Shown: piece after piece, positions 7,855-62,912 of the stretch
Numbering within the stretch: position 1 is the first letter of the stretch
Layout: each line of letters opens with the position of its first letter
DNA from: Denitrobaculum tricleocarpae
Lineage (GTDB): Bacteria > Pseudomonadota > Alphaproteobacteria > Kiloniellales > Kiloniellaceae
Direction of reading: 5' to 3'
Length of the DNA: 64,000 nt
Assembly: GCF_007004665.1 (NCBI RefSeq)
Contig: NZ_ML660058.1
Span: forward strand, 62,001 to 126,000
Position numbers and translations under genes: made by a program
Notes under the pieces: model-generated
Seen by the model: only the letters and a program-made list of their open reading frames with translations
Database searches by the model: none
Told to the model about the DNA's origin: nothing

Positions 7855-7868
7855 GTTGTATATACAAC
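7855..7868. promoter_or_regulatory. HutC-type operator before hutH
   Basis: A perfect 14-bp palindrome, GTTGTATATACAAC, ends 16 bases before the hutH start. The same core TTGTATATACAA occurs before hutU and before the ABC transporter operon, and a close variant lies between hutC and hutG. HutC is a GntR-family repressor known to bind palindromes of this kind. Its position is right for blocking transcription start or elongation. Confidence 0.8.
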
Positions 7869-7997
7869 TTCTAATTCGGATTTGAGATCAGGTCAATCGT
7901 CCGTAACGGCCCCTCATCCCTGTCCGCCGGGGGGCGGATGGCCCCGGATAGCCCCGCATAGCTTGTGCATTTGCCTGGGTCGGTGTATCAGCCCTGC

Positions 7998-8630
7998 ATG
8001 ACATCCGAACTTCCCTTTTGGCAGCGCAAACCCCTGGAAGACATGAACCGGGAAGAGTGGGAATCGCTCTGCGACGGCTGCGGAAAATGCTGCCTGATCA
8101 AGCTCGAGGACGAGGACAGCGGCGACATTGTCGCGACAGATGTCACCTGCAAACTGCTGGATTTGGGCACCTGCCAGTGCAGCCAGTATCCGCAGCGTTC
8201 GAAATATGTGCCCGACTGCGTCACGCTGACACCTGAGAACATTGGATCCCTGGGCTTTATGCCGGCCACCTGCGCCTATCGTCTGCTGGCCGAGGGCAAA
8301 CCGCTGGAAGACTGGCATCCGCTGGTGAGCGGAGATCCGGACTCGGTCCATCGCTCGGGAAATTCCGTGCTGAACCGGGTGGTGCCGGAGACCGAGGTCG
8401 AGGATGCCGATCTCGAGGACCACGTGATCGACTGGTTCGATGGGGAAGCCATCAAGTGGGACTTTGTCGAGGAAGACCTGAGCCCGGGTGACCCCGCTGA
8501 TAAGGCCTGGAACGATGGCAGTGGGAACGATGGAAGTGGGGACGAGGGCGGTTGGGACGATGAGGCCTGGGGTGAGGAAGAGAGCCGGGGCGAACAACGG
8601 GGCCGGGGCGTTGCGGGCGATGGAGCTTGA
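7998..8630 (+). CDS. YcgN/UPF0260-like Cys-cluster protein with acidic tail
   Basis: A protein of about 210 residues from the YkgJ/UPF0260 family, which carries conserved cysteine clusters thought to bind zinc or iron (here CDGCGKCC near residues 26-33, then [15 protein letters not shown] and DCVTLTP). The start at 7998 ([16 protein letters not shown]) matches the family; the upstream in-frame ATG at 7965 does not. The family usually ends near 150-160 residues. This protein has an extra, acidic, Gly/Asp/Trp-rich tail of about 55 residues that looks low-complexity. Its last 11 bases overlap the next gene. The precise function is not known. Confidence 0.82.
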
Positions 8631-9333
8631 AGCTGTCCGGCATGCGGTTGCGGCCTCGGGGCTGTCGCTCCGCGGCGGATTTCACCCTTCTGCCGAAGAC
8701 GGCGTTCCGCTTCTGAAGACGGGTGCGCCCGCGCGGACGCTTTTGCTGCTGGGGAACGTCGACGACGGTATGTGGCAGGCTTTCCGGGCGTCTCCGGAAG
8801 GCCGCGACGGCGGATCGTCTCACGCGCATCCGCTGTCAGATCCTGACTTGGGGCCCCTGGATCGCTGGAGCCGCCGGGTGATCACCGGCCTGGCCGAAGA
8901 CCTTGGTGCCGAGCCGGTGTTTCCCTTTGGCGGCCCGCCCTATTTTCCCTTTCAGGCCTGGGCGCGGAAATCGGAGCCGGTCTGGCCCTCGCCGCTGGGT
9001 CTGTTGGTCCAACGTGATTACGGTCTTTGGCATGCTTACCGCGGAGCGTTGTGTTTTGCGGCCCGGATTGCACTGCCGCCCAGAGATGATGGCGTCTCGC
9101 CCTGTCTGTCCTGCTCCGGTCAACCCTGCCTCTCGGCCTGTCCTGTATCCGCCTTCTCAGGCCAGGGCTATGACGTCGCGGCCTGCGCCGCACATATCGC
9201 GGGGCCCGAGGGGCGTGATTGCATGGAGCTGGGCTGCCGGGCGCGTCGCGCCTGTCCCGTGGGGAGTGACGTGCGTTACCAGCCGGAGCAGGCGGCTTTT
9301 CATATGCGCGCCTTTTTGAGCGCGCGTCCCTGA
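8620..9333 (+). CDS. 4Fe-4S ferredoxin-type protein
   Basis: A 237-residue protein whose C-terminal third carries a CxxCxxxxCxxxCP cluster ([14 protein letters not shown]), followed by further cysteines in RDCMELGC and RRACPVG, so two Fe-S sites or one cluster plus structural cysteines are possible. The frame is open much further upstream, but [14 protein letters not shown] at 8620 is the natural start; the upstream part reads through the low-complexity end of the preceding gene. It overlaps that gene by 11 bases, so they are likely cotranscribed. It resembles the ferredoxin-like half of epoxyqueuosine-reductase-type proteins, but I would not assign that activity. Confidence 0.75.
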
Positions 9334-9451
9334 AACTGATCCGGCCACGAACCTGATCGGTTGGAGAAGAGCTCTAAGTGTTTGGTCTTTCACCAGTCAC
9401 GCACTAAGTCTTTCTGGACGCGTGGTATGAGTGTTTTTAGGGGAGAGGTGA

Positions 9452-10156: not shown

Positions 10157-10177
10157 GGCCTGCCTCTCGGCAGGCCC
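10156..10177 (+). terminator. Rho-independent terminator
   Basis: A 9-bp perfect stem, GGGCCTGCC / GGCAGGCCC, with a TCTC loop starts on the last base of the amidotransferase stop codon. CGTCTCTC follows instead of a strong T-run, so termination may be incomplete. Confidence 0.65.
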
Positions 10178-10229
10178 CGTCTCTCACAAGACGTCTTTCG
10201 GACCAGATTATCTTTGTGTCCGGAGCACC

Positions 10230-10781: not shown

Positions 10782-10930
10782 GTCAAATGGGTCCTGGTTT
10801 GAGGAGAGAGCGAAGGAACGATCACACAGCAACTACTAGAGCAGACGCTGTTGCCGTGTCTAGCTTGGTGATCTCCTGGCCTGTATCCTGTCCGTCGCCT
10901 GAAACCGGATGCTGAATACAGTTCATGCTC
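10782..10930. other. Part of the intergenic region between secreted protein and LysR regulator
   Basis: Together with 11174-11319 this makes a 540-bp gap that contains only the weak 80-residue candidate listed next. This part has no clear hairpin or motif; it should include the promoter of the minus-strand secreted protein. Confidence 0.35.
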
Positions 10931-11173: not shown

Positions 11174-11319
11174 GATATAACATACCTTATGTATAAGATT
11201 GGGAGATGATCTCTTTGGGTTTCCAGTCTGCTCTATTAAGTCTGCAGTAATGGTTCAGCTGACAAACGATCTCTTCTAATCAATGGATTAGAATTAATAA
11301 TTTATAGGCCGAGGACAAT

Positions 11320-12222: not shown

Positions 12223-12258
12223 TTCACCGGGGGCGACAGAGGGCCCGCGGGGGGCGGG

Positions 12259-12699: not shown

Positions 12700-12762
12700 C
12701 TGCTTGCTCCTTTTCTCCCGCCAAACCTGCCCGTGTCACCGCACCGATCAAGAGTCCCCGTT

Positions 12763-16108: not shown

Positions 16109-16132
16109 TTTCCTAAAACGAGTGAGACGTGA

Positions 16133-45348: not shown

Positions 45349-45541
45349 GGCCTCATCCCTGCAGTGCCCGACCTGTTTTCCGGGCAGGCATCAGCCCTCT
45401 TTGAGGGGCATCTGTTGGACGAAGACTAGGTCTCTTCGCTCAAAAAAACAAATTTTTCCGCCCGTTTGCCCAAGCGCGCTTTTTTCTTTCGGGCGAAGCT
45501 GTGGTCCTAACAAGCCTGCTATAATGAGGGAGCCAAGTATC

Positions 45542-46570: not shown

Positions 46571-47603
46571 TGATACTGCAAAGGACAAAAGCGGGCGGCG
46601 CTATCCCTTGCGCATGCCGCCGGGTTGGACACCGCCTTATCCCTCCTTCATGTCCGAATTCGACGCCGCCCGGCGCTCGGCCTCGATGGTCGTCATGGGA
46701 TGTCAGTTCGAAGACGGCGACCGCGCCACCGCTTTTGAATTCGTGTCCCGGATGGTGCTCTTGGCCGAGGCGGAGGGGAAGGCGGATCACGCTGATCTTT
46801 CTTCCTGTGAAGCTGACAGCGCCGGACGCGCCCAGTTCGTGATGACTGGCTACTGGCTGAAGCCCGACGCGCTGGAGCATTTCTTTGAGAGTGCTGCATT
46901 CCAGACGCTCTGGCAGCGGCATTCGGCGGAAGCTTTGCCGCACGGTATTTTCCGCGAGGTCTTCAACGTCCCGCTGGAACGCTTTGAAACCCTGCACTCC
47001 GATCCAACGCATCTCGTGGGTGTGGCGCACGCGCGGGAAGAGGTAACCGACCCCATCGACCGCCATGCCTATTGGGGCAGCATGCGTGACCGCATTCCTG
47101 CCTCGGCGGATAATCCTTTCGATCCTTCGGGGACCATCGAGATCCTCGAGCAGAGCGCAAACCGTATCCTGTTGCGGCCGGGCGAGAACCTCGCCGTCAT
47201 TCGTTCCGGCCAAGACCTCGGCGGCGTCCACGGGCAGGAGCGCGAAGAGTATTACGGCGAGGTCGAACCGGTCTTGAACGCTGGCATGGCGTTTCTGCGG
47301 GATCAGGGCGCGGAGGTGAACTGTCTGGATTGCCGCTACATGGTCTTTGTCGATGGTAGCGGCGAGAAGACCGATCATACCTTCGGCCTGGCCTATTTCC
47401 GCTCGCTGTCGGATCTGGAGAACTGGTCCGAGCACCACCCGACGCATCTGGCGATCTTCAATGCCTTCCTGGAATTCGCGCCGCGCTACGGACCGGCGAT
47501 GAAGTCCCGCTACTGGCACGAGGTCTCGGTTCTGCCCGCGCAAAGCCAGATCGCCGAGTATGTGAACTGTGCGCCGGGAACCGGCCTTTTGTCGGGTCTT
47601 TAA
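46557..47603 (+). CDS. Aldoxime dehydratase (phenylacetaldoxime dehydratase family)
   Basis: A 348-residue heme-containing enzyme dehydrating aldoximes to nitriles, whose products the adjacent nitrilase can use. The histidine in PTHLAIF (His297) fits the proximal heme ligand, and the one in YWHEVSVL (His321) fits the catalytic distal histidine known in this family. The start overlaps the nitrilase end by 14 bases. The two genes thus encode an aldoxime to nitrile to acid route. Confidence 0.92.
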   Translation: MSQSSDTAKDKSGRRYPLRMPPGWTPPYPSFMSEFDAARRSASMVVMGCQFEDGDRATAFEFVSRMVLLAEAEGKADHADLSSCEADSAGRAQFVMTGYWLKPDALEHFFESAAFQTLWQRHSAEALPHGIFREVFNVPLERFETLHSDPTHLVGVAHAREEVTDPIDRHAYWGSMRDRIPASADNPFDPSGTIEILEQSANRILLRPGENLAVIRSGQDLGGVHGQEREEYYGEVEPVLNAGMAFLRDQGAEVNCLDCRYMVFVDGSGEKTDHTFGLAYFRSLSDLENWSEHHPTHLAIFNAFLEFAPRYGPAMKSRYWHEVSVLPAQSQIAEYVNCAPGTGLLSGL

Positions 47604-47613: not shown

Positions 47614-47634
47614 TGAACCTCAACAGACCCTAGT
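47614..47634. repeat. 21-nt direct repeat, copy 1 (hutU 3' end)
   Basis: The sequence ends with CTCAACAGACCCTAGT and spans the hutU stop codon (CTA at 47630-47632). A 20/21 copy lies at 50232-50252 across the livF-like stop codon, and a 17/21 copy at 30370-30390 covers the betI stop. Copies 1 and 2 bracket hutU and the unknown gene beside it. Confidence 0.75.
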
Positions 47635-49327
47635 CCAGCATCGGCAGGTTCAGGCCGTGCTCACGGGCGCAGTCGATGGCGATGTCATAACCGGCGTCCG
47701 CATGGCGCATGACACCGGTTGCCGGGTCGTTGGTCAGGACTCGCTCCAGACGGCGCGCGGCCTCGTCGGTGCCGTCGGCGACGATGACCATGCCGGAGTG
47801 CTGCGAGAAGCCCATGCCGACCCCGCCGCCGTGGTGCAGCGACACCCAGGTCGCGCCGCTGGCGCAATTGAGCAGGGCGTTGAGCAGCGGCCAGTCGGAG
47901 ACCGCGTCGGAGCCGTCCTTCATACCCTCGGTCTCGCGGTTCGGGCTGGCGACCGAACCGGAGTCCAGATGATCGCGGCCGATCACCACCGGCGCTGAGA
48001 GTTCGCCCTTCGCCACCATCTCGTTGAAGGCGAGCCCAAGCCGGGCCCGCTCGCCCAGGCCGACCCAGCAAATCCGCGAGGGCAGGCCCTGGAACTGAAT
48101 GCGCTCCCGTGCCATGTCGAGCCAGTTATGCAGGTGCGGGTTGTCCGGGATCAGTTCCTTCACCTTGGTGTCGGTCTTGTAGATGTCCTCCGGATCGCCG
48201 GAGAGGGCGGCCCAGCGGAAGGGGCCGATGCCCCGGCAGAAGAGGGGCCGGATGTAGGCGGGGACGAAGCCCGGGAAATCGAAGGCGTGCTCGCTGCCCA
48301 TCTCCAGCGCCATCTGCCGGATGTTGTTGCCGTAGTCGAGGGTGGGGACACCTTGTTTATGGAAGTCGAGCATGGCCTCGACCTGGACTTTCATGGATTC
48401 CTTCGCAGCCCGGGTGACTTCGGCGGGATCACTGGTCTTGGTCCGTTCCCAGCGGTCCAGGCTCCAGCCGATCGGCAGGTAGCCGTTGAGGGGATCGTGG
48501 GCGCTGGTCTGATCGGTGACCACATCCGGGCGCACACCGCGTTTGACCAGTTCCGGGAAGACTTCACCCGCATTGCCGAGCAAGCCGACCGAAATGGCGC
48601 GGCCTTCGGCGCAGGCGGTCGTGATCATCTCCAGCGCGGCATCGAGACTGTCGGTCTTGTGATCCAGATAGCCGGTTTCCAGGCGCATCTCGATCCGGCT
48701 GGGCTGGCATTCGACCGCCAGCATGCAGGCACCGGCCATGGTGGCGGCCAGCGGCTGAGCGCCGCCCATGCCGCCCAGGCCACCGGACAGGATCCACTTG
48801 CCGGTCAGGTCGCCGCCGTAGTGCTGGCGCCCGACCTCGACGAAGGTCTCGTAAGTGCCCTGCACGATGCCCTGGCTGCCGATGTAGATCCAGGAACCCG
48901 CGGTCATCTGGCCGTACATCATCAGGCCGACCTTATCGAGCTTGTGGAAATGATCCCAGTTCGCCCAGTGCGGCACCAGGTTTGAGTTCGCGATCAGAAC
49001 GCGCGGCGCGTCCGCATGGGTTTTGAACACGCCGACCGGCTTGCCCGACTGAACCAGCAGGGTCTCGTCCTCGTTCAGCTCCTTCAGGCTGCGCGTGATA
49101 ACATCGAAACTTTTCCAGTCTCGCGCCGCGCGGCCGATCCCGCCGTAGACCACAAGCTCATTCGGTCGTTCCGCGACCTCGGCGTCCAGGTTGTTCATCA
49201 GCATGCGCAGCGGCGCTTCGGTCAGCCAGCTCTTGGCATTGAGTTCAGGGCCACGCGGCGCACGGATTTTGCGTTCGTTGTCCAGACGTTGGTTATCCGG
49301 GCGCTCACTGTTGTTGGATGCCGTCAT
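47630..49327 (-). CDS. hutU: Urocanate hydratase
   Basis: A 565-residue urocanase, the second step of histidine degradation, with a tightly bound NAD+. The segment [20 protein letters not shown] and the active-site region [20 protein letters not shown] are characteristic. The start at 49327 ([13 protein letters not shown]) follows GGAGAGAGCC; the longer frame to 49354 runs into the operator. A 24-bp palindrome of HutC type lies 24 bases upstream. hutH is 41 kb away. Confidence 0.96.
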
Positions 49328-49374: not shown

Positions 49375-49422
49375 TCCGACTGTCGAGACGGAGTCTCCGG
49401 GCCTGTGCGAATTGCCGCGATG

Positions 49423-50231: not shown

Positions 50232-50252
50232 TGAAGCTCAACAGACCCTAGT
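50232..50252. repeat. 21-nt direct repeat, copy 2 (livF-like 3' end)
   Basis: Differs from copy 1 by a single base (G for C at the fifth position) and likewise contains the stop codon of the gene at 50248. Confidence 0.75.
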
Positions 50253-50955
50253 TCGTCAGGCCGAGATAAGCCTCGATCAGCTTGGGATCCTTGCGCGCTT
50301 CCTCCGCGGAACCCATCCAGACGCTGCGTCCCGATTCCAGCACGCAGACCTGATCGGCGACGGCCAGGGCGCGCTGGGTGTTCTGTTCAACCAGCAGGAT
50401 GGTGATGCCGCGCGCCTTGAGCTTTTCGATGGCGTCGTAGCAGACGTCGACGATCTTGGGCATCAGGCCCAGGGAGACCTCGTCGATCATCAGGAACTTC
50501 GGATCCGCCATCAGGGCCCGCCCGATGGCCAGCATCTGCTGCTCACCGCCGGAGAGGGACCCGGCGCGCTGGGCGATGCGCTCTTTCAGGCGCGGGAAGG
50601 TTTCCAGCACCATGGCTTTGGCCTCGGCTTCCGCGCTGCGCGGGCGGGAATAGCCGCCCATGGTCAGGTTTTCCTCCACCGACATATCAGCGAAAAGTCG
50701 GCGGCCCTCCGGCGCCAGCGCGATCCCCTCGGTTACCCTCCGGCTGGCAGGCAGTTTCGAGATATCCCGTCCGTCGAAGGAGATCGATCCGCCCTGCAGC
50801 TCGACCTGACCCGCGATCGTCATGATGGTCGAGGTTTTGCCCGCGCCGTTGGCGCCGACCAGCGCGAAGATCTGGCCCTGGGGAATCTTAAGACTGAGGC
50901 CGTGCACGGCGGTAAAGGCGCCATAGCCGCACTTCAGGTTTTCCAGCTTAAGCAT
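50248..50955 (-). CDS. Branched-chain-type ABC transporter, ATP-binding protein (LivF-like)
   Basis: A 235-residue ATPase. Walker A is GANGAGKTS near 36-44, the signature is LSGGEQQMLAIGRAL, and Walker B is KFLMIDEVSLGL. Start at 50955 (MLKLENLKCGYGAF). It overlaps the livG-like gene by 8 bases. Last gene of the five-gene transporter operon. The HutC-type operator in front of the operon suggests control by histidine or urocanate. Confidence 0.9.
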   Translation of the reverse strand: MLKLENLKCGYGAFTAVHGLSLKIPQGQIFALVGANGAGKTSTIMTIAGQVELQGGSISFDGRDISKLPASRRVTEGIALAPEGRRLFADMSVEENLTMGGYSRPRSAEAEAKAMVLETFPRLKERIAQRAGSLSGGEQQMLAIGRALMADPKFLMIDEVSLGLMPKIVDVCYDAIEKLKARGITILLVEQNTQRALAVADQVCVLESGRSVWMGSAEEARKDPKLIEAYLGLTN

Positions 50956-51721
50956 GAGCGGGCTCCTCGCGCTCGGCAACCGAGCCCAGATAAGCCGCCT
51001 GCACCGCCGGGTCGTCCATGACCCTGCGCGGATCGCCGGCGGCAAGGTTGCGGCCGTTGTCGAGAACAACGAGGCGTTGGCAGATGCGCAGGACCTCGCT
51101 CAGGTTATGTTCGATCAGGATGATGGAAAGGCCGTCCCGGTTGAGGGCAACGATGGTGTCGGCCAGGCGCCCCGCCTCCAGGTGATTGAGACCCGCCAGC
51201 GGCTCGTCGAGCAACAGCAGCTTCGGATCGAGCGCCAGGGCGCGGGCGACCTCCAGGCGTTTCAGCATGCCCAGCGGGAGAGATGAGGGCTCGGACTCCG
51301 CCATTTCTTCGATGCCCACCCTCTGCAAGAGTTCACGGGCGCGTTCGCGTTCCGCGTCCCGATGCCGGTGGCCAAGCGCGCCCAGGGGCGAGAGGGTTTT
51401 TGCGTGGCCCGCGGCGAGGGTGACGTTATCGATGACGGACATGCTGCGGAAAGGGCGCACGATCTGCTGGGAGAGACCAAGACCCAGGCGCACACGCTGA
51501 TGCGTTGGCAGTTTCGTGATGACGCGACCCTGCAGTGTGACGTCGCCTTCCTGGGGCGTGACCACGCCGGTGATGCTGCGCATCATGGTCGTCTTGCCCG
51601 CGCCGTTGGGGCCCAGCAAGCCGAGCAACTCGCCCGGCTGCAGGTCGAAACCGGCGTCTTCCAGGGCGGTGACGCCGCCGAAGCGCACCGTCACGCCCTT
51701 GACCGAGAGCAGCGCCGTCAT
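50948..51721 (-). CDS. Branched-chain-type ABC transporter, ATP-binding protein (LivG-like)
   Basis: A 257-residue ATPase with Walker A GPNGAGKTT, the signature region LPLGMLKRLEVARAL and Walker B LLLLDEPLAGLN. It shares a 4-base overlap with the permease gene upstream (ATGA) and an 8-base overlap with the next ATPase. Confidence 0.9.
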   Translation of the reverse strand: MTALLSVKGVTVRFGGVTALEDAGFDLQPGELLGLLGPNGAGKTTMMRSITGVVTPQEGDVTLQGRVITKLPTHQRVRLGLGLSQQIVRPFRSMSVIDNVTLAAGHAKTLSPLGALGHRHRDAERERARELLQRVGIEEMAESEPSSLPLGMLKRLEVARALALDPKLLLLDEPLAGLNHLEAGRLADTIVALNRDGLSIILIEHNLSEVLRICQRLVVLDNGRNLAAGDPRRVMDDPAVQAAYLGSVAEREEPAHA

Positions 51722-52581
51722 GACGGGTCTCCCGAAGCCGCGGTCCGGTTCCGCCGCTTCAGGGCCGTGACCATACCGGCCATGCCGTTGGGGCTGAAGC
51801 GCATCACCGTGAAGAGCAGCGCGCCGTAGAGGAGAAGTTTGTAATCCGAGATGAACTGCAGCCAGAGCGGCAGGACCGAGAGCACGGCGGCGGCCAGGAT
51901 CACACCCCAGACCGACCCAATGCCGCCGACCACCACCATGGCCAGGACCGTGATGGATTCCACGAAACCGAAGCTGTCCGGGTCGATAAAGCGGATGTTG
52001 TGGGCATAGAGGCCGCCCGCCAGACCGGCCAGCGCCGTGCCCATGGCGAAGGCGGCGAGCTTGTAACGCGCCACGTCGATGCCCAGCATCCGCGCCGTGT
52101 CTTCATCGTCGGCGACGGAATCGAAGACATAGCCCATCCAGGAGCGTTTGAGGTAGAGGCTTAAGGCGGTGACGGCGGCGGCGATGATCAGCACCAGGGC
52201 CATGAAGGCGGGCTTGGAAAGACCGCTGCTCGGGATGCCGGAAAGGCCCATCTCGCCGCCCAGAAAATCCTGCTGCCGGACGATCCCCAGAAAGAGGAAG
52301 CCCACGCCCATGGTGGTGATGGCGAGGAAGTCGTGCCGCACCCGCAGCGAGGCCAGACCGACCACCACGCCGATCATACCCGCCAGCAGGAAACCGGCGG
52401 CGAGGGCGAGCGGGAAGGGCAGGCCGCTCTTGGTGATCATGGCCGCGCAGTAGGCGCCGATGCCGTAAAACGCCGCGTGCCCCAGACTGATCTGTCCGCA
52501 GAAGCCGGTGATGAGGTTCAGGCTGAGGGCAAAGATCACGGCGATGCCCATGGCGGTCAGAAGTGTGATTTCATAAGCCAT
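51718..52581 (-). CDS. Branched-chain-type ABC transporter, permease (LivM-like)
   Basis: A 287-residue membrane protein with about eight hydrophobic segments and the LivM signature region (CGQISLGHAAFYGIGAYCAA). It pairs with the LivH-like permease 9 bases upstream. No extra domain is present. Confidence 0.9.
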   Translation of the reverse strand: MAYEITLLTAMGIAVIFALSLNLITGFCGQISLGHAAFYGIGAYCAAMITKSGLPFPLALAAGFLLAGMIGVVVGLASLRVRHDFLAITTMGVGFLFLGIVRQQDFLGGEMGLSGIPSSGLSKPAFMALVLIIAAAVTALSLYLKRSWMGYVFDSVADDEDTARMLGIDVARYKLAAFAMGTALAGLAGGLYAHNIRFIDPDSFGFVESITVLAMVVVGGIGSVWGVILAAAVLSVLPLWLQFISDYKLLLYGALLFTVMRFSPNGMAGMVTALKRRNRTAASGDPS

Positions 52582-52590: not shown

Positions 52591-53451
52591 CTATCCCTTC
52601 CCGAAGAGGCCCTGAGGCCGCAACATCAGGACCGCGATCAGGAAGGCGAAGGCAATGGCGTCCCGGTCGAGCAGATTGCCCAGATAGATCGTGCCGTAGG
52701 CCTCGATGACGCCCAGCGCCAGGGCCGCGATCAGGGTGCCGCGCAGATCGCCGAGGCCGCCCAGGACGATGATCGCCAGGGCTTTGTAGCTGGGCACGCT
52801 GCCCATGGTCGGCTCCACCAGATTGTTCAGCAGGGCGACCATGACGCCCGCGGCGGCGGCCAGGGCCGAGCCGACGAAAAAGTTGATGTCGCGAATACGC
52901 CCGATATTGACTCCGAAGGCTTCGGCCATCTTTGGATCGGTGACCGTCGCGCGGGAGGCGGTGCCGATACGGGTGCGGAGGGTCAGCAGCGCCAGGCCGC
53001 CGATCAGAACCAGCGCGCCGATCATGGTCGCCAGTTCGGCCTCTTTCAGATTGACGCCGAAGACGGCAACCGGATCTTGCAGAGGCGGCGCAGTAAAGGA
53101 AAGGCCGTAGGGGCCGAAGATCAGGCGGAAGAGTTCTTCCATCATGATGAAGAGGCCGATGGATGCGATCAGGGCAACGTAGGGCGGCCGGCTCAGCAGC
53201 GGCTGGTAACAGGTGCGGTAGATGCCGATGCCGAGCAGACCCATGGCCGGCATGGCGACCAGAAGCGCCAGCAGCAGGCTTCCCGTGGCATTGGTCACGA
53301 TCACGCCGATGTATCCGCCCAGGGTAAAGAGCCCGGCGTGGGCCACATGGAGGATGCGCAGCAGACCGTAAACCAGGGTCAGGCCGACCGCGATCAGAGC
53401 GTAGATGCTGCCCTGCACCAGGCCTTGCAGCAGGAGTTCGAAAGCGAGCAT
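52591..53451 (-). CDS. Branched-chain-type ABC transporter, permease (LivH-like)
   Basis: A 286-residue permease with about eight membrane helices and the LivH-type start (FELLLQGLVQGSIYALIAVGLTLVYG...). Located 101 bp after the binding-protein gene, with a stem-loop in that gap, and directly before the LivM-like gene. Confidence 0.9.
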   Translation of the reverse strand: MLAFELLLQGLVQGSIYALIAVGLTLVYGLLRILHVAHAGLFTLGGYIGVIVTNATGSLLLALLVAMPAMGLLGIGIYRTCYQPLLSRPPYVALIASIGLFIMMEELFRLIFGPYGLSFTAPPLQDPVAVFGVNLKEAELATMIGALVLIGGLALLTLRTRIGTASRATVTDPKMAEAFGVNIGRIRDINFFVGSALAAAAGVMVALLNNLVEPTMGSVPSYKALAIIVLGGLGDLRGTLIAALALGVIEAYGTIYLGNLLDRDAIAFAFLIAVLMLRPQGLFGKG

Positions 53452-53552: not shown

Positions 53553-54713
53553 TTACTTCTCAGGCGGGGCCAGTAGGTCCGGGTCATTGATGATCGAATG
53601 GCGGTGCCAGTTGCCGTCCTTGACCACCTGCACCTGGACGTCCTTGCGGACTTCGCCCAGGCCGTTGAAGGAGATGGTGCCGGTGGAGGCTTCGAGCGTC
53701 AGCCCGGCGACGGCGTCGCGGATCGCTTTGGGATCTTCGCTGCCCGCCTCGCGCAGAGCCGCGATCGCGACCTTCATGGCGGTATGGCCGGAGGCCGCGA
53801 CCATGTCGGCCTTGTATCCGGCTTTTTCCTCGAAGGCGGCGATGAAGTCCTTGGCTTCCGGAGAGTCCGAATCCCGGTCCAGCGAAGTGGTGATGATCAC
53901 GCCTTCCGAGGCGCCGCCCGCGATCTCGATGAACTTCTGGGAATCGTAGCCTTCCTGCCCGATAACCGGCACTTCGATGCCGCCGGAACGAAGCTGTGAG
54001 ACCAGGGGGCCGGCGGTGAAGAAATAGCCCGAGGCGTAGATTGCGTCGGGGGCGTCGGACTTTACCTTGGCCACGATGGGACCGAACTGACGGTCTTTGA
54101 TCGAGTACTCGTATTCGCTGATGATCTCGATGCCGAATTGCTCCGCGGCTTCCTTGAAGCCGTTGGCCAGGGATTGGCCGAAATCGTTTTTCAGCGTAAT
54201 CAGGGTGACTTTCTTTTTGCCCAGGCTTTCGCCGATCAGCTTCGCGCCGGCGCGGCCCTGGACTTCGCCGACAAAGGAGGTGCGGAAGACGTAGTCGCCC
54301 GAGCGGGTGATTTCCGGGTGCACGGCAAAGGCCGAGATGTAGGGCACGCCCGCCTCCTGGAAGACACCGGCGGCGGCCCGGGTCGCGCCGGAATAGCTGC
54401 CCGAGATCGCGATCTTGACTTCGTCCTGCTCGACCAGCTTGGTGGCGATGGGCACAGCGGACTTGGGCGAAGCCTGATCGTCGTAGATCACCAACTCGAC
54501 CGTCTTGCCGTTGACGCCGCCATTGGCGTTGGCCTGTTCTGCCGCGAGCTGCGCACCGATCAGCGCCGAGGTGCCGTCGGCGGCGGCAAAGCCGGTCTGC
54601 GGCACATTGATCCCGATCTTGATACTGTCGGACTGGGCGATTCCAGCCGTGCCAAAAACCATCGTACTTACAGCCGTGGCGAGGGCGACCCGCTTGAAAA
54701 AGTTTTCCTGCAT
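53553..54713 (-). CDS. Branched-chain-type ABC transporter, substrate-binding protein
   Basis: A 386-residue LivK-type periplasmic binding protein with a signal peptide at about 1-27. The type 1 periplasmic fold begins KIGINVPQTGFAAADGTSAL and continues with the conserved domain order. Ligand not determinable by sequence. The HutC-type operator 126 bases upstream points to histidine, urocanate or a breakdown product rather than leucine. GGGAAACGAGACTG precedes the ATG. Confidence 0.9.
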   Translation of the reverse strand: MQENFFKRVALATAVSTMVFGTAGIAQSDSIKIGINVPQTGFAAADGTSALIGAQLAAEQANANGGVNGKTVELVIYDDQASPKSAVPIATKLVEQDEVKIAISGSYSGATRAAAGVFQEAGVPYISAFAVHPEITRSGDYVFRTSFVGEVQGRAGAKLIGESLGKKKVTLITLKNDFGQSLANGFKEAAEQFGIEIISEYEYSIKDRQFGPIVAKVKSDAPDAIYASGYFFTAGPLVSQLRSGGIEVPVIGQEGYDSQKFIEIAGGASEGVIITTSLDRDSDSPEAKDFIAAFEEKAGYKADMVAASGHTAMKVAIAALREAGSEDPKAIRDAVAGLTLEASTGTISFNGLGEVRKDVQVQVVKDGNWHRHSIINDPDLLAPPEK

Positions 54714-55441
54714 ATCAGTCTCGTTTCCCTGATGAATCGCTGCAGCGCTGGTTTATGCCAGTCCGAACGGGCAAGGCGAGCGCTTGCATCATCCGTCTAT
54801 TTTCGCAGCGGTTTTTTTGTGAAGCATCATGCTGCCTCACTTGTATATACAAGTATAGGCAAGGAAATTTTCACGAGTCAAATCGCCGTAATGCCTCGGC
54901 GTCGCCTGTTCGCTGCAGTGCAACAGCCCTACCGTGTAGTCTAACCGGTGATGCTACCAATAGCAGTTCCAACTGCGGCGCGCCGACTGACGGAACGGCT
55001 TGATTATCCCGGGTCTTGAGTGTTCTGGAGGAGACTGTCTGGCGTCTGCGCGCAAGGTGCGGCAGTCGCGAGTACATGGCTGGTACAATTGGAAGAAGAA
55101 GCAACACGAAGTGCAATTTACGTCAAAAGGAGAACCTGGAAAAAAAGTTGGTTTTTGACTGAAGTTTTAGACTGTTAAGGCTGAGATTTAACCTGCTGTT
55201 AAGTGGAAAGTGGCTTGCTTGAAGGGGGCAGCTGGGTTCGCGCCAGGGTTTCATTTAAAACTTGTCATGAGACCTTTCGTCTCGAAACGGGGGGCATCTG
55301 TGTTGAAGAAGACTTTCGCCGGCTAAGCAGGGTTTTGTTCGATCCCATAAGAGAGCTGGACGCGAATACCTGCTGAATAGTTATAGTTGTATTATCCGAT
55401 TGTCGAGGCGTCACGGTCGGATTGGCAAGGGAAGAGAAGCC
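54714..55441. other. Divergent intergenic region transporter / chemoreceptor
   Basis: About 730 bases between divergent genes. The left end holds the HutC-type operator at 54839-54854. The rest, 54860-55440, includes AT-rich stretches (55120-55260) but no supported gene. A leader with AAGGGAAGAGAAG precedes the chemoreceptor start. Confidence 0.5.
54839..54854. promoter_or_regulatory. HutC-type operator before the ABC transporter operon
   Basis: A 16-bp perfect palindrome, ACTTGTATATACAAGT, 126 bases upstream of the binding-protein start. The core is identical to the hutH and hutU sites. It ties a branched-chain-type transporter to histidine utilisation. Confidence 0.78.
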
Positions 55442-57199
55442 ATGCTGCGGAAGATCAGGAATCTCAGTGTCGGAAACAAAGTCCTCGCGATCGTCGGCTT
55501 TTGCCTCCTGGCGCTCGCCTTCGTCGCAGGAATCGCCATCACGCAGATGTCGAGAATCGCTGTGGAAATCGAGACCGTTGCCGAGCAAGACATCCCTCTG
55601 ACCGAGATCATCAGCAAAATCACGGTTCACCAACTCGAGCAGGCCATCGAGTTCGAACGGGCTCTGCGGTATGGCGCCACAATGGGTGATGACGCCCACA
55701 CGCAGGAGAAGTTTGAAAAGGCAGTCTCCAGGTTCGAAGCGTTGGCTCATCAAGTGGATGAAGAAATCCTGCAGGGCGAGGAACTGGCGGCTGAAGCCTT
55801 GAAACTGGCGCACAACCCAATCGAAGAGAAGGAATTCAAACACATCCTGGACGTTCTGAAGGATGTTGAGGCCCATCACGCTGCATTCGACAAACAGGTG
55901 TTCGCGATTTTCGCCCTCTTGTCTGCCGGCGAGATCGCGCAGGCAATGACCATGGAAGAGCCGATCGAAGCGGCGGAAGAAGAACTCAATCACGAACTGG
56001 AAGAACTGCAGGCCGAAATTGTGCGCTTTACCGGCGAGGCCATGTTGACTGTCGACGCGCATGAAAAGCAAACGCTGCACACGCTGATCGGAATCTCCGC
56101 CGCAGCGTTTGTCGTCAGCCTGTTACTATCGGTGCTGTTGGTTCGCCTGGTCATTTCCGGGCCGCTCTGCGAACTCGTGGGTGCCCTCAAAGAGCTCATT
56201 GCCGGAAACACGGACGTGTCGGTGCAGGTCAGATCCGATGATGAAATCGGCCTGGTGGCCGGTGCGCTCGAGCTCTTTCGGGAAAAGCTGATCGAGAACA
56301 AGGAACTGGAGGCCGAGGCAGCCCGTGAGAAAGAGCGCGCGGAACAGGCTCGCCGACAGACACTGTTGAACATGGCGGACGATCTTGAAAACTCGGTCGG
56401 CGAAATCGTTCAGGTGGTGACCTCGGCTTCGACCGAGTTGCAGTCTTCGGCGCAGGTCATGACCTCGGCCGTGGAGGAAACCTCCGCGCAGGCCGCGGCT
56501 GTGGCGGCGGCATCGGAGGAAGCGACCACGAACGTCAACACCGTGGCAAGCGCGACCGAGGAGCTATCGAGTTCGATCAGCGAGATCACCCGCCAGGTCG
56601 ATCAGTCCGCGTCGATCACCGGCACGGCGGTCGACGAAGCCAGCAGAACTTCCGCGACTGTCAAGGATATGGCGGAGATGGCAGCGAAGGTCGGCGAAGT
56701 CGTCGATCTGATCAATGAGATTGCAGAGCAGACGAATCTCCTGGCGCTGAATGCAACCATCGAGGCCGCGCGGGCGGGAGACGCCGGAAAGGGCTTCGCC
56801 GTCGTTGCCTCCGAAGTTAAAAACCTCGCGACCCAGACCGCGCGTGCGACGCAGGAGATCGCAAGCCACGTATCCGGTATGCAAAGCGTGACCCTGAGTA
56901 CGACCAGGGCGATCGAGAGCTTTAGCTCGACCGTCAATCAGGTGAGCGAGATTTCGGGCAACATTGCCGCCGCCGTCGAGGAGCAAAGTATGGCGACCAA
57001 TGAAATCGCCCGAAATATCCAGGAGGCAGCGGAGGGAACGCAGGAGGTGACGTCGAACATCTCGGGCGTCAACGACGCGGCACATGAATCGGGACATGCC
57101 GCCAGTCAGGTGCTTCAGGCATCAGGCGAGCTCTCTACACAGTCGGTGATCCTGCAGCAGGAAGTTGACCGCTTTCTCTCCGAAATTCGGGCGGCGTAA
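55442..57199 (+). CDS. Methyl-accepting chemotaxis protein
   Basis: A 585-residue chemoreceptor with a first membrane helix at about 15-32, a compact helical periplasmic domain (about 33-200, four-helix-bundle type), a second helix near 205-225, a HAMP domain and the signalling hairpin [37 protein letters not shown]. Start at 55442 ([15 protein letters not shown]) after GGGAAGAGAAG. Smaller than the other two receptors in the window. It is divergent from the HutC-controlled transporter, so histidine or urocanate is a natural ligand to test. Confidence 0.93.
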
Positions 57200-58041: not shown

Positions 58042-58126
58042 GCGGTCTCCCGGTTAAAGCTGTCCCGTGTCACATTGAAGCCGCCCGCGGCCTTCGGCTG
58101 AAGACTCCCGGCCTGAACACACGAGG

Positions 58127-59113
58127 TCATATCTGAAAGGGCGCTTTGCTTTTGCTGCTGTCCAGCTTCAGCACATCAAGGGTTTCGAATATGGCCCAGA
58201 AACGGATCAGGGCCGCCTCCAGGCGGCGGGGGTCGTCGGCAGGCCAGGTGGGATCCGTGACCTCGGCAGCGTTTTCCGTCAGATCAAGCGACATCAGCAT
58301 GGTCGAACCGGTGAAGGCGAATTGGATATCGAACCCCAGCCTCTGTTCCAAAGCCAGCAGCTGCCCGCGCAGGACCGGCGTGACGATGGAGCGGGCCTCA
58401 TCTTCATCGGTCGCATAGATTTCGAAGCTCTGCTCGAAGGTCCAATCGCCAAGCTCGACCCGCTCGGGCGGCGTTTGAAAGCCCTGCGAAACTGCGTGCA
58501 GATGCCTGTCATTCTTCAGGATGAGCGTCTGACCCCTGAAACGCCGCGAGAGTTCGAATACCGAAAGCAGGCCGTTGAAGACCACCGATGGCTGTCCTTC
58601 GCCGTTCTCCTTGAGCAATGCATCGGTTTGCAGAAAGACGATGTCCTTGTAGGACCCCGCCAACTGGTTTTCGTAGCGGGATGTGCTGAAGCCGCCGACC
58701 AGGCCAAAGCTGGCAAAGTTCTTTGCCTTCGACTGCATGGGCGCGAGCGCATAGGAAATACCGGCGGCATCGCACAGGGGTTTGTATATCTCCTGGCGCA
58801 TGGCCAGGGTCATGTCCGGCCGTGGCCGTTTGCTCAGCGCCCACTGCGCGCCGCCACCGGCCAGTGCGCCCAGAAGCACGCCGTTCACCGTACCGATTGC
58901 CAGATAGGCCAGACTGCCGACCACCAGGGCAATCGCGAGAGAAGCGATCCAGGTCAACTCGTCGCTGCGTTTGCGTGCCTGATGCTTCTTGACCAGCTCG
59001 ATCAGGCGCGGCGCGATGCCCTCGTTGTAGATGGTCGCGGCGGTTTTCGTGGCCAGCGGGACGCCGGAATGCGCCGTCGCGGGTTGGTCGGAAAGAGCGG
59101 CCTTATCGTTCAA
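58127..59113 (-). CDS. DUF3137 membrane protein (copy A)
   Basis: A 328-residue DUF3137 protein. After a 50-residue soluble head come two membrane segments (about 53-71 and 76-92), then a long soluble domain (about 105-325). DUF3137 proteins usually accompany LemA, as here. The start codon is TTG at 59111-59113, overlapping the stop of the upstream gene (TTGA). Its N-terminal 37 residues are nearly repeated in the broken copy at 60072-60266. Confidence 0.85.
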   Translation of the reverse strand: MNDKAALSDQPATAHSGVPLATKTAATIYNEGIAPRLIELVKKHQARKRSDELTWIASLAIALVVGSLAYLAIGTVNGVLLGALAGGGAQWALSKRPRPDMTLAMRQEIYKPLCDAAGISYALAPMQSKAKNFASFGLVGGFSTSRYENQLAGSYKDIVFLQTDALLKENGEGQPSVVFNGLLSVFELSRRFRGQTLILKNDRHLHAVSQGFQTPPERVELGDWTFEQSFEIYATDEDEARSIVTPVLRGQLLALEQRLGFDIQFAFTGSTMLMSLDLTENAAEVTDPTWPADDPRRLEAALIRFWAIFETLDVLKLDSSKSKAPFQI

Positions 59114-59172
59114 AGCTTTGTCTCTGCGTTGAGGCGGAGGGTTTCGACCACATCGAAGATCATGGTCAGGTC
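59000..59172. repeat. Duplicated junction, arm 1 (pairs with 60153-60325)
   Basis: Covers the end of one DUF3137 gene and the start of the next. The last 71 bp (59102-59172) are identical to 60255-60325; the rest is about 90% similar. The constant offset of 1153 bp marks a tandem duplication or conversion. Confidence 0.85.
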
Positions 59173-60054
59173 AATAACGAATTCCCGCAAACGCTTTTTG
59201 TCCGCCAGTGGTGCATCCAGCCCGCCGATGCTAAAGGCGTCACGGTTACGATCGATTGACATAAGCAACGAGTTGCGGTCAAAGGCAAGACGAACCTTTG
59301 CCGCCAGTTGCTCTTCCAGCTCGAGAAGCCGGTCAGTGAATGCGCGGGGCAGCAGATCGCGTGCCTCGATCTCGTCGTTCGAGTAGACTTCGTGTGCACG
59401 CTCGAATTCGAGGTCTTCCAGGCGCACGCGTTCCAGTTTGTTGCCGCCGTGGCCCAAAAAATTGCCCACAAGGCCGCCATCCCGAAGCACCAGGGTACGT
59501 CCGTGGAAGCTTTTGCTCATATCAAAAGAGACAAGAAGACCGTGAAAGACCGTCTGCATGCTTTCGATACCCCTGTATCGGAGATGGGCGCCGAGCAGAG
59601 AAAAATTGAGACCCTTGTATCTGCCCGACACCTCACCTTCGAACCGGCGGTGATTGCAACTGCCGGCCAACCCGAGTTTTTGAAAGTATCCGACGTCGGA
59701 GCCATTGGGTTGCAGTTGGTAAGTAAAGCCAAGCGCATCGCAAAGCGGAACAAAGACGTCCTGCCTGACGCTGTCGGTAAAGCGTTTTACTGGTCTTGCA
59801 ATGCGTAACCAGTAGCTGACAGCACTCGTGGGTACAGCTAAGAGAAGGGCGTCAACGGAATGGGTGATGAGGAATGCGACGAGAGCGGCCGCGGCCCCTT
59901 CGGCCAAAACCAGAGTCCAATTCCTACGCTTTTTCTGTGCGAGCGCGATCCGTTCGTGATCGCGGGCCTCTAAACCTGGTGCGATCTTTTCTTCGAAAAC
60001 TGTCTCGAACCTGTCCAGCAATGACCCTGTGCGGGCTGTCGATGGCAAGTGCAT
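59110..60054 (-). CDS. DUF3137 membrane protein (copy B1)
   Basis: A 314-residue DUF3137 protein, clearly a paralogue of copy B2 (60263-61207): both begin MxLPS...SLL(D/E)RFE, share FEEKIAP, and end TMIFDVVETLRLNAETKL. It has two membrane segments at about 45-85 and a long soluble domain. ATG at 60054 is chosen because it aligns with the B2 start; a TTG at 60075 would overlap the stop of the remnant. Confidence 0.83.
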   Translation of the reverse strand: MHLPSTARTGSLLDRFETVFEEKIAPGLEARDHERIALAQKKRRNWTLVLAEGAAAALVAFLITHSVDALLLAVPTSAVSYWLRIARPVKRFTDSVRQDVFVPLCDALGFTYQLQPNGSDVGYFQKLGLAGSCNHRRFEGEVSGRYKGLNFSLLGAHLRYRGIESMQTVFHGLLVSFDMSKSFHGRTLVLRDGGLVGNFLGHGGNKLERVRLEDLEFERAHEVYSNDEIEARDLLPRAFTDRLLELEEQLAAKVRLAFDRNSLLMSIDRNRDAFSIGGLDAPLADKKRLREFVIDLTMIFDVVETLRLNAETKL

Positions 60055-60071
60055 ATTTCCACCATCACTTT

Positions 60072-60266
60072 TCAAGATGTCGCTAGCGTTCCGAAAATAC
60101 GCTTTGATTGGTAAGCAAAGTTTAACGAAATTGCTTGTAACGGAGAGTGCGTGATCAGGCGCGGCGCGATGCCATCGTTACAGGTAGTCGCGGCGATTTT
60201 TATGGCCAGGGGGACGCCGGAATGTGCCGTTGCGGGTTGGTCGGAAAGAGCGGACTTATCGTTCAA
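60072..60266 (-). pseudogene. Decayed DUF3137 copy (A' remnant)
   Basis: A 64-codon frame starting with TTG. Its first 37 codons (MNDKSALSDQPATAHSGVPL, then ...GIAPRLI) match the start of copy A, then the frame runs into unrelated sequence after 60153. The rest of copy A, about 290 codons, is missing. It starts with the same TTGA overlap seen for copy A, so it is the second copy of A after a B-A duplication, now broken by deletion or insertion. Confidence 0.8.
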
Positions 60267-60325
60267 AGCTTTGTCTCTGCGTTGAGGCGGAGGGTTTCGA
60301 CCACATCGAAGATCATGGTCAGGTC
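60153..60325. repeat. Duplicated junction, arm 2 (pairs with 59000-59172)
   Basis: The partner of arm 1. It ends abruptly at 60153, which is the breakpoint of the remnant: left of it the sequence is unique and AT-rich. Confidence 0.83.
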
Positions 60326-61207
60326 CTTGACGATTCCCAGCAGCCGCCTTTTGTCCGACAGGGGCGTTTCCAGTTTTCCGATGTTAAAGGCGTCGCGACT
60401 CAGTTCGATGGACATAAGCAGCGAGTTGCGGTCAAAAGCAAGGCGGACCTTCGAATTCAATTGCCGCTCCAGGTCCAGAAGGCGGTCCATGAAGGCCGGG
60501 GTCAGCAGATAGCGCGCCTCAACCTGATCGCTCGAATAGACTTCATAGGCCCGCTCGAACCTGGGATCTTCCAATCGCACGCGTTCCAGCTTGTTGCCGA
60601 TGCCGCCGAGAAAATTACCCAGCATGCCGCCGTCCCGCAGCACCAGCGTGCGTCCCCGAAAGCTCTTTGTCATCTCGAAGGCTGCGAGCAAGCCATGAAA
60701 GACCGTGCGGGAATTGTCTTTGTCGACGTCCTTGAGGTGTGCATCGACAAGCGAGAAATCGAGATCGTCATAGCGGCCTGAGACTTCGTCTTCGAACCTG
60801 CTGCGATTAAAGCCGCCGACCAGTCTGAGCTCGGTGAAATAGCGGGCGTTCGAACCATCCGGTCGCAGGCGGTAGGTAAAGCCGAGAGCGTCGCAAAGCG
60901 GAATGAAGATCTCCTGCTTTATGCTGTCGGTCAGACGTTTGGTCGGCCTGGCAATCAGCAGCCAATAGACGCCTGCGCCCACGGGCAGGGCCATGAAGAC
61001 CGAATCAACGTCGCGGGTGAGAAAAAACATGATGGAGGTCGCCGCGGCGCTCGCCGCGATGATCACTGCCCAGTTGCGGCCCTTGTTGCGTGTCAGAGCG
61101 ACACGCTCGTGATCACGGGCCTGCAGACGCGGGGCGATCTTTTCTTCGAAAACCGCTTCGAACCGCTCCAGCAGCGAGCGCGTGTGTGTCGGTGAAGGCA
61201 AGTCCAT
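60263..61207 (-). CDS. DUF3137 membrane protein (copy B2)
   Basis: A 314-residue DUF3137 protein, the intact partner of copy B1 with the same length and end. Two membrane segments lie at about 45-62 and 68-86, followed by the large soluble domain. Start at 61207 (MDLPSPTHTRSLLERFE), 12 bases after the lemA-like stop. The final 71-bp stretch over its stop and the next start is identical to the copy B1/A junction. Confidence 0.85.
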   Translation of the reverse strand: MDLPSPTHTRSLLERFEAVFEEKIAPRLQARDHERVALTRNKGRNWAVIIAASAAATSIMFFLTRDVDSVFMALPVGAGVYWLLIARPTKRLTDSIKQEIFIPLCDALGFTYRLRPDGSNARYFTELRLVGGFNRSRFEDEVSGRYDDLDFSLVDAHLKDVDKDNSRTVFHGLLAAFEMTKSFRGRTLVLRDGGMLGNFLGGIGNKLERVRLEDPRFERAYEVYSSDQVEARYLLTPAFMDRLLDLERQLNSKVRLAFDRNSLLMSIELSRDAFNIGKLETPLSDKRRLLGIVKDLTMIFDVVETLRLNAETKL

Positions 61208-61219
61208 CGTCTTCCCCGA

Positions 61220-61798
61220 TCACTTCAGATAGTCGTCGACATTCACGGCCGCGCGGTGGCTAGTGTCTTCCATCTCCCAGAAGGGCATGGGCTTTACCTT
61301 CGCCCAGCCCGCAATCATGCTGCCGGGAAAAATCTCGACAGCGTTGTTCAAATCGGTCACGGCGGCGTTGTAAAACCGCCGTGCGGCCGAAATGTGGGCC
61401 TCGGCTTCCGTGAAGGTGTCCTGAGCTTTTGTGATGGTTTCCGCAGACCGAAGCTCCGGGTAGTTTTCAGCGACTGCGAAGAAACGGGCCATGCCGCTTT
61501 GCAGCTCCTGGCCGGCGGTCAGATGGGCTTGAACGGCTGCCGGGTCGCTCGGGTCGTAACCGGCATCAACGCGCGCGCGCAAGGCCGTCAGACCTTCCAG
61601 CAGATCTTTTTCATGGGTCATGAAACGGCCGGCAAGCTTCAGGATGTTGGGCAGCAGATCGTGCCGCTTCTTGAGTTGGACATCGATCGACGAGAGGGCT
61701 TCGCGCGCTGCGTTTCGGCGGCTGATGAGTTTCGCATACCAGATATAGAGGATCACGCCGGGTACGACGATGATCAACAACAGCGTTCCCAATTCCAT
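61220..61798 (-). CDS. LemA family protein
   Basis: A 192-residue LemA protein: an N-terminal membrane anchor (LLLIIVVPGVILYIWYAKLI) followed by a long helical domain with the conserved RRNAAREALSSIDVQLKKRHDLLPN. LemA proteins are membrane-anchored, of unclear function, and typically encoded with DUF3137 or TPM-domain proteins. It is the first gene of this cluster. Confidence 0.9.
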   Translation of the reverse strand: MELGTLLLIIVVPGVILYIWYAKLISRRNAAREALSSIDVQLKKRHDLLPNILKLAGRFMTHEKDLLEGLTALRARVDAGYDPSDPAAVQAHLTAGQELQSGMARFFAVAENYPELRSAETITKAQDTFTEAEAHISAARRFYNAAVTDLNNAVEIFPGSMIAGWAKVKPMPFWEMEDTSHRAAVNVDDYLK

Positions 61799-62077
61799 CC
61801 CGTCACTCCCCCCGAGGGTTTAGGATTCGTTGAAGATCCAAATACACAGGTATCATTCTTAGTGGAGCCGCTACCAGTTTTCGAGATCTATTTCGCGATC
61901 AGAACATAAGCCGGGAATGGTAAATAAAGGTTAAGCATGTTCTACGTTGCGAAGGTTGGCGCCGTCGAAGGCAATGCGAATGATCGCATGGCGATCCTCC
62001 AGGCTTTTGAGCGGGGCTTTACGGATGCACAACCTGAACGGTGCCGGCAGGGGGGCATCGCCGATGTGGCCCGGACG
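61799..62077. other. Spacer upstream of the LemA cluster
   Basis: About 280 bases. It contains the promoter of the minus-strand LemA gene. No palindrome of HutC type and no hairpin was found. The plus-strand frame starting at 61937 is a shadow of hutC. Confidence 0.45.
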
Positions 62078-62800
62078 TCAGCTGCTGAAGCGGCCCCAAA
62101 GCTGGAAGCGGTCGCCCGGATGGACAAGCCGGGCATAGGTGACCGACTTATCTCCCGACCAGGTCCGGCGCTTGAGCAGCAGACAGGGCGCCTGCGGGCT
62201 GATCGAGAGCAGCCGCGCGGTTTCCGGGTCCGGTTGGATCGCCTGAATCACATGCTCCGCCTCACTCAAGGGCGCGGCCTTCATAAGGTATTCGTAGGGC
62301 GTGATGCTCCTGAAATTCTGGCTCAGGTAGTCGGGCGCAGCTGCGGGGTTCACAAAGCGGTCTTCGAGCTGCACCGGCTGTTCATTCTCGAAGTGAAGGA
62401 TGAGCGAGTGAAAAATCTCGGTGCCTTCTTCGAGGCCCAGCAAACCGGCCTCCACGCTGCCCGCGGTTTCTGCCCGCAAGAAATAGATCTCGGAAGAGTA
62501 ATGGTGACCACGCTCGCGAATCTCGTCCGCGATGTTGCGGATCTCCAGCACGGCGGATTGCGGGCGGCTTTCGGCGACAAAGGTTCCGGCCCCCTGGGTG
62601 CGGGTCAGCCAGCCCTCGGCGGTAAGTTCGCGCAGCGCCCGGTTGACGGTCATGCGCGAGAAGCCGAGCGAACGGGTCAGCTCATTTTCCGAAGGAACGC
62701 GGGCACCCTCGGGCCAATCGCCTTTCAGGAGGCGGTCCAGAATATGATCTTTGACCTGCTGGTAGGCAGGCGCATTGTTTTGGCCTTGCGGAAGGGTCAT
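62078..62800 (-). CDS. hutC: Histidine utilisation repressor HutC (GntR/UTRA)
   Basis: A 240-residue GntR-type regulator. The winged helix at about 8-75 includes VPSENELTRSLGFSRMTVNRALRELTAEGWLTRTQGAGTFV, and the C-terminal UTRA domain (about 95-235) binds the effector, urocanate in known HutC. It is divergent from the hutG-like gene. A palindrome of the HutC type lies 97 bases upstream, so it probably represses itself as well. Confidence 0.92.
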   Translation of the reverse strand: MTLPQGQNNAPAYQQVKDHILDRLLKGDWPEGARVPSENELTRSLGFSRMTVNRALRELTAEGWLTRTQGAGTFVAESRPQSAVLEIRNIADEIRERGHHYSSEIYFLRAETAGSVEAGLLGLEEGTEIFHSLILHFENEQPVQLEDRFVNPAAAPDYLSQNFRSITPYEYLMKAAPLSEAEHVIQAIQPDPETARLLSISPQAPCLLLKRRTWSGDKSVTYARLVHPGDRFQLWGRFSS

Positions 62801-62896
62801 GCGGTCCTGTCCAGTCTCTGCAAGACGTTCACACAGGTTGCAGGGCGGGCGGATTTCATCTTAACGTTATCCCAAGGTCCAAAGAGCGATACTCAG

Positions 62897-62912
62897 GCTT
62901 GTATAGACAAGC
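62897..62912. promoter_or_regulatory. HutC-type operator between hutC and hutG
   Basis: A 16-bp palindrome, GCTTGTATAGACAAGC, with one mismatch in the middle. The core differs by one base from the other three sites. It lies 97 bases from hutC and 58 from hutG, so it can serve both. Confidence 0.75.

Follow-up and report, generated by a model that had tools for sequence, protein, structure and literature searches.

The histidine-breakdown (hut) genes of Denitrobaculum tricleocarpae (genome of 6.44 Mb in 34 contigs) appear to be united by an operator instead of an operon. In the stretch analyzed here, the 64,000 nucleotides of C7:62001-126000 (hereafter the window), the core palindrome TTGTATATACAA precedes hutH, hutU and the livKHMGF operon, and a one-base variant of it lies between hutC and hutG. 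We suggest that these sites are very probably operators of one HutC, which would control hutH, hutU, hutI, hutF, hutG, its own gene hutC and an importer of the LIV type. The four sites and the hut genes of the window are as follows.

7855-7868, predicted hutH operator, GTTGTATATACAAC, 14 bp, perfect palindrome, 15 bp before the hutH start codon
49351-49374, predicted hutU operator, TCAAAGTTGTATATACAACTTTGA, 24 bp, perfect palindrome
54839-54854, predicted livKHMGF operator, ACTTGTATATACAAGT, 16 bp, perfect palindrome with the exact core
62897-62912, predicted hutC/hutG variant operator, GCTTGTATAGACAAGC, 16 bp, one mismatched pair
6331..7839, minus strand, hutH, histidine ammonia-lyase (NF006871, 732 bits, cut-off 524; TIGR01225, 695 bits, cut-off 539)
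47630..49327, minus strand, hutU, urocanate hydratase (TIGR01228, 970 bits, cut-off 375; ATG start at 49327 assumed)
62078..62800, minus strand, hutC, GntR-family repressor (TIGR02018, 317 bits, cut-off 220)
62970..63764, plus strand, hutG, N-formylglutamate deformylase (TIGR02017, 322 bits, cut-off 279)

A shared core before dispersed hut genes

The initial annotation had placed four operators at these coordinates, with a 24-bp perfect palindrome at hutU and a one-base variant of the core at hutC/hutG, and all of this was confirmed when the window was re-checked. Allowing up to two mismatches, the core matches the window at exactly these four places; shuffled sequences gave a mean of 0.27 matches, and none of 100 shuffles reached four. 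We discarded palindromy by itself as evidence, the window containing six perfect palindromes of at least 14 bp, where 20 first-order Markov sequences average 6.0. Since long palindromes are not in excess, it is the sharing of the core and its placement before genes of one pathway that count as evidence. An unrelated perfect palindrome of 24 bp, TTCAACCGGGCATGCCCGGTTGAA, stands at 5606-5629, downstream of hutH.

The exact core occurs four times in the whole genome, and the reversed core, which served as the control pattern, not once. The fourth copy (C1:955702) lies on another contig than the window, between hutI (495 bits, cut-off 298) and the divergent hutF (643 bits, cut-off 413), so that all four exact copies stand at hut genes or at the livK operon. 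With this fourth site and the variant at hutC/hutG, every enzyme of the five-step pathway, whose last step is formylglutamate deformylase, is marked: a site adjoins each of hutH, hutU, hutI, hutF and hutG, and all five enzymes score over their cut-offs. The dispersal of the histidine-breakdown genes, given initially as 55 kb, is thus wider than first described, extending over two contigs with hutI and hutF outside the window. HutC is the sole TIGR02018 match over the cut-off in this genome. The core also agrees with what is known of HutC binding: the consensus given in the available text of PMC12977541 is TGTA-N2-TACA, which is contained in TGTATATACA at hutH, hutU, livK and hutI/hutF and from which TGTATAGACA at hutC/hutG differs by one base.

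Seven further places in the genome match the core with one mismatch, among them the hutC/hutG site. The other six were considered as an extension of the regulon. Those at C1:484497, C2:24610, C3, C8 and C9 were rejected, lying inside coding open reading frames (ORFs) of unrelated genes, the C2 site at the first codons of its ORF; the one at C4:443920 may be a target or a chance match. Like two other variant sites, the C2 site is also present in sister genomes within conserved coding sequence, a recurrence that protein conservation would most simply explain.

The core, HutC and LivK in related genomes

Our comparison set comprised 58 genomes, that of D. tricleocarpae and 57 relatives, and we compared all 75 of their exact-core loci for adjoining genes. 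These 75 copies are found in 25 genomes, against a single place for the reversed pattern (in G033). Hut genes account for 53 of them (14 at hutH, 13 at hutU, 10 at hutC/hutG and 16 at hutI and/or hutF), seven hutI sites of genus g4 having been assigned by locus comparison, as the HutI reference starts too early for scripted assignment. Another six precede livK, eight an MttB-family gene (six of these shared with a divergent DAO-type gene), three a PotA-like gene and one a TctC-like gene, and four copies received no gene assignment (L050, L074, L094, L096). The initial annotation had named occurrence of the palindrome widely before unrelated genes as the result that would speak against it. This was not borne out: of the 75 copies, including the four of D. 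tricleocarpae itself, 71 precede hut, liv, MttB-family or other transporter genes. Presence of the core also follows presence of the regulator: HutC scores over the cut-off in 23 of the 25 genomes with an exact site versus 12 of the 33 without, and the two site-bearing genomes in which it does not (G027, G055) have one site each, both without gene assignment. Upstream of hutC, an exact or one-mismatch site was found at 21 of the 30 hutC loci fetched. The surroundings of the core are conserved as well. Throughout the own genus (four genomes) the hutH operator keeps its place. The flanks track the gene class, reading GTTG...CAAC in 13/13 exact hutU sites of the 58 genomes and CTTG...CAAG in all four exact livK sites of the own genus, a sorting by gene that is no measure of affinity.

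The third site of the window precedes five genes of a transporter operon.

50248..50958, minus strand, livF-like ATP-binding subunit (PF00005 in ORF 50248-51069; start chosen, backed by similarity in relatives)
50948..51721, minus strand, livG-like ATP-binding subunit (best model LivG NF008449, 190 bits, below the cut-off of 362)
51718..52581, minus strand, livM-like permease (best model LivM NF008450, 157 bits, below the cut-off of 366)
52591..53451, minus strand, livH-like permease (286-amino-acid ORF, named by conservation between livK and livM in relatives)
53553..54713, minus strand, livK-like binding protein of HAAT/LIV type, proposed histidine binder (NF011933, 192 bits, below the cut-off of 477)

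The five-gene set with its LIV-type binding protein (livH by conservation) identifies a LIV/HAAT-type importer, and the scores of the binding protein, LivM and LivG, all below their cut-offs, do not place it among the branched-chain amino acid transporters. At a threshold of E 1e-80 or better, 13 LivK genes were found in the 58 genomes, including that of D. tricleocarpae, and 11 of them have a site with no or one mismatch upstream. We also searched a collection of named species with an alignment of nine LivK sequences; the best 80 of the 247 relatives that it returned entered the comparison. Of these 80 loci (33 shorter than 12 kb, 47 of 12 kb or more), 39 contain hut genes that reach 40% identity, 36 contain hut genes that reach 50%, and 30 have two or more hut genes; among the loci of 12 kb or more the proportion with a hut gene is 29/47. 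Judged by record name, the loci with hut genes include some from alpha-, beta-, gamma- and deltaproteobacteria and SAR324. In seven loci (L173, L174, L183, L199, L206, L211, L246), hutC and hutU are the next reference genes after livKHMGF; the first of these records, L173, apparently belongs to G043, a genome of family f7. In 17 of the best 80 loci the 400 bp upstream of the livK match contain a site with no or one mismatch, and all 80 together hold 31 such places versus four of the reversed pattern. With the site at 11 of 13 LivK genes and a hut gene in 39 of 80 loci, the transporter fits into the regulon.

A number of observations weigh against a single HutC regulon of this extent. HutC of D. 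tricleocarpae scores only 274.5 bits on another HutC model, NF011575, whose cut-off is 424, and one of the one-mismatch sites of its genome (TTGTATATATAA at C4:443920, L008 ~1501-1512) stands 69 bp upstream of an unrelated ORF that is 477 amino acids or longer. Twelve genomes encode HutC without an exact site; in six of them a site with one mismatch adjoins hutC, hutH or livK (G032, G033, G035, G039, G042, G043), and in the other six (G021, G031, G036, G038, G041, G056) a limited inspection found no site. In genus g4, where eight genomes have two HutC matches over the cut-off, a site with up to two mismatches was found at none of the eight hutC loci fetched, which represent one of the two copies per genome. 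Two of the 13 LivK genes (G033, G039) have no upstream site, and 41 of the best 80 LivK loci contain no hut gene. Genomes of one genus are kin, so that counts over the 58 genomes are non-independent, and ten of the 80 named LivK loci are apparently contigs of those same genomes, so that the two sets overlap.

The palindrome might be an AT-rich promoter element, or a chance palindrome, before these genes. Its core does hold a -10-like TATACA on either strand, which at hutU is separated by 17 bp from a -35-like TCGACA, and the number of long palindromes in the window is what the Markov model predicts; no other gene of the 6.44-Mb genome, however, is preceded by the exact core, and across families the core tracks HutC and the hut and liv genes, which makes this reading highly improbable. 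Nor do we give much credence to binding of the core by some other regulator of the GntR/HutC family. Three more matches to the HutC model do occur in the genome, at 112 to 115 bits and below the cut-off; against them stand the published HutC consensus within the core (PMC12977541, available text), the sites at 21 of 30 hutC loci and the HutC genes in 23 of 25 site-bearing genomes, and another regulator is accordingly very unlikely.

It could also be argued that the hutC/hutG site, with its one mismatch, is a decayed, non-functional copy. The variant TTGTATAGACAA is indeed less specific than the core, with 35 copies in the 58 genomes versus 16 of the reversed pattern: 11 are at hutC, five at hutH, four at hutI/hutF and one at soxB, and 14 are elsewhere, nine of the 12 viewed among these 14 lying inside an apparent coding ORF. 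At hutC, however, it reads TTGTCTATACAA in the direction of the gene in all 11 genomes that have it there, drawn from families f1, f4, f5 and f7, with hutG on its far side in seven and no hutG match within the compared stretch in four; that it stands at hutH and hutI/hutF as well also speaks against decay, which we consider unlikely. The sequence comparison thus indicates that the variant operator is not decay, since 11 genomes from four families keep it at hutC in one orientation. We also asked whether TATACA survives in the variant on just the transcribed strand and rejected this as a rule, since it is true at hutC (11/11), opposite at the five hutH sites and mixed (3:1) at hutI/hutF. If the altered half-site is weaker, its conservation in front of an autoregulated repressor gene would fit the graded operator strength suggested initially, and the one-base variant at hutC provides a test case for whether autoregulated repressor genes keep weaker operators.

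We note that the g4 hutC loci without TTGTATATACAA (L109, L111, L112, L113, L115, L116, L117, L120) have a feature of their own: in seven of the eight upstream regions (not L120) there is a long, partly imperfect inverted repeat, ACAGTGTATTT ... GGAAATACACTGT.

Transported substrate, methylated histidine and neighboring genes

Most likely, to judge from its sequence and context, livKHMGF imports histidine. Solved LIV-type binding proteins align with LivK, whose acidic residue E254 is invariant in nine aligned relatives and aligns with D in two of the three solved binding proteins compared and with S in the third. This position presumably holds the alpha-amino group of the ligand, and urocanate has no alpha-amino group. 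Import of urocanate or of another imidazole compound in place of histidine is a possibility to which we give less weight: the operator and the hut neighbors would suit any substrate of the pathway, and a urocanate transporter is required for urocanate use in some bacteria (PMC12772324, available text). Histidine as the preferred substrate would matter for annotation, which would name this LIV-type importer a branched-chain amino acid transporter. Genus g2 has no LivK match at 1e-80. Exact sites in this genus (L071, L078, L083, L086) stand before a PotA-like ABC transporter gene in three genomes and a TctC-like gene in one, and its importer may have been replaced by another transporter.

Divergent from livK, about 545 bp from the operator, is a chemoreceptor gene.

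55400..57199, plus strand, methyl-accepting chemotaxis protein (PF00015, PF00672)

Three of the four own-genus genomes share this arrangement. A relative of this chemoreceptor (37-50% identity) is divergent from hutH, by the operator, in all eight genomes of genus g2 (chemoreceptor loci in relatives: L046, L047, L067, L070, L072, L077, L079, L081, L088, L090). From its position the protein is a candidate for histidine or urocanate sensing; its control by HutC is uncertain because the distance to the operator ranges from 50 to ~800 bp.

Eight genomes carry an exact HutC-type site in front of an MttB-family methyltransferase gene: five of the sister genus g2, one of another genus of the own family (G005) and one each of two further families (G034, G050). 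The three proteins scanned match PF06253 at 657 to 684 bits, and the genes are without in-frame stops and hence not of the pyrrolysine type. In six of the eight genomes a DAO-type FAD oxidoreductase gene diverges from the same exact site, and a second, weaker copy of the site lies 25 or 26 bp away in four g2 genomes and in G050; a variant site is also found before soxB in G034. In five g2 genomes (G004, G008, G010, G012, G014) no more than ~8 kb separates the MttB gene from hutF, and the DAO gene is equally close in the three of these five that have it. An aromatic amino acid lyase gene stands beside the oxidoreductase gene in G016 and G026, and in named records MttB (L173) or DAO (L211) matches occur near hut genes. 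On the basis of gene families and context, we tentatively raise the possibility that the HutC regulon of this order controls N-demethylation of methylated histidines such as hercynine (histidine betaine); if so, quaternary histidine would be fed into the Hut pathway, and the regulon would reach upstream of histidine. Several points count against this link. Among the best-scoring 30 MttB loci (more paralogues exist), eight have the exact site, three a two-mismatch site and 19 none; G004 and G010 have neither the exact site nor the DAO gene; and DAO relatives are present in G025, G048 and G026, genomes without HutC over the cut-off, that of G026 lying ~6 kb from hutI all the same. No site was found at the best MttB match of D. 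tricleocarpae itself, so that there the link is absent or lost.

Two further gene groups of the window may be mentioned. Next to hutU, at 44392-47603, are genes for an AraC-family regulator, a carbon-nitrogen hydrolase (PF00795) and a haem-containing dehydratase (PF13816, 261 bits), the best NCBIfam model of the last being aliphatic aldoxime dehydratase with a score below the cut-off; these domains point to a possible aldoxime-to-nitrile-to-acid pathway. Between the chemoreceptor gene and hutC, at 58127-61798, are genes for three consecutive DUF3137 proteins and for a protein of the LemA family.

Predicted mechanism and comparison with known HutC systems

The regions before hutH, hutU and livK were compared in four genomes of the own genus, and each contains conserved hexamers, which we infer to be promoters.

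7891..7896, minus strand, -35-like TTGACC of hutH, 22 bp upstream of the operator, kept in 4/4 genomes
49381-49386, minus strand, -35-like TCGACA of hutU, 17 bp before the -10-like TATACA inside the operator, 4/4 genomes
54852-54857, minus strand, -10-like TATACT of livK, overlapping the operator edge, layout kept in 4/4 genomes
54876-54881, minus strand, -35-like TTGACT of livK, layout kept in 4/4 genomes

We infer HutC binding, repression, the role of urocanate as inducer and the transported substrate, and posit the following sequence of events. HutC dimers would occupy TTGTATATACAA, the operator abutting, covering or overlapping a -10-like element at hutH, hutU and livK, and a bound dimer would block RNA polymerase at each of these three promoters; HutC would control its own gene too. 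Imported histidine would then be deaminated by basal HutH to urocanate, which would free HutC from all sites. A shared operator in place of a shared operon means that the genes can sit far apart. The initial proposal of one regulator over dispersed hut genes is hence supported by the specificity of the site, its conservation, its co-occurrence with HutC and the gene families involved, and it offers a clean case of one local repressor holding together a dispersed pathway.

Much of this resembles what has been described elsewhere. The Pseudomonas fluorescens and P. aeruginosa HutC (PMC12977541, as far as its available text goes) likewise recognizes an operator centered on TGTA-N2-TACA, with autoregulation of hutC and urocanate as the effector, and the regions it protects overlap promoter elements, in agreement with the layout predicted here. 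There, according to the same text, the promoters of two hut operons are bound, whereas here the predicted targets are five or more separate promoter regions spread over two contigs. As in E. coli LivJ/LivK-LivHMGF, the importer comprises five genes with a LIV-type binding protein; in contrast to importers of the E. coli type, its binding protein, LivM and LivG score below the curated cut-offs and it is hut-linked in 39 of the 80 loci.

A comparative study of 113 proteobacterial genomes reconstructed their HutC regulons (Leyn et al. 2016, PMC5343134); in the part of the paper available, HutC is likewise of the GntR family, all hut enzymes belong to the core of the regulon and the transporters are lineage-specific. 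Section 12 of that paper names HisT, HisJMPQ, HutXYZ, HisXYZ, a TonB transporter, a COG2814 permease, a COG3314 protein and a COG1457 transporter; the five-gene LIV/HAAT-type importer is absent from this HutC section and present here. In the open-access literature searched, we found no description of a LIV-type importer in a hut regulon or of MttB with HutC. The system of D. tricleocarpae is therefore, as measured against the HutC section of PMC5343134, an ordinary HutC regulon with a transporter type unnamed there, and this LIV-type importer is found by hut genes in several classes of Proteobacteria.

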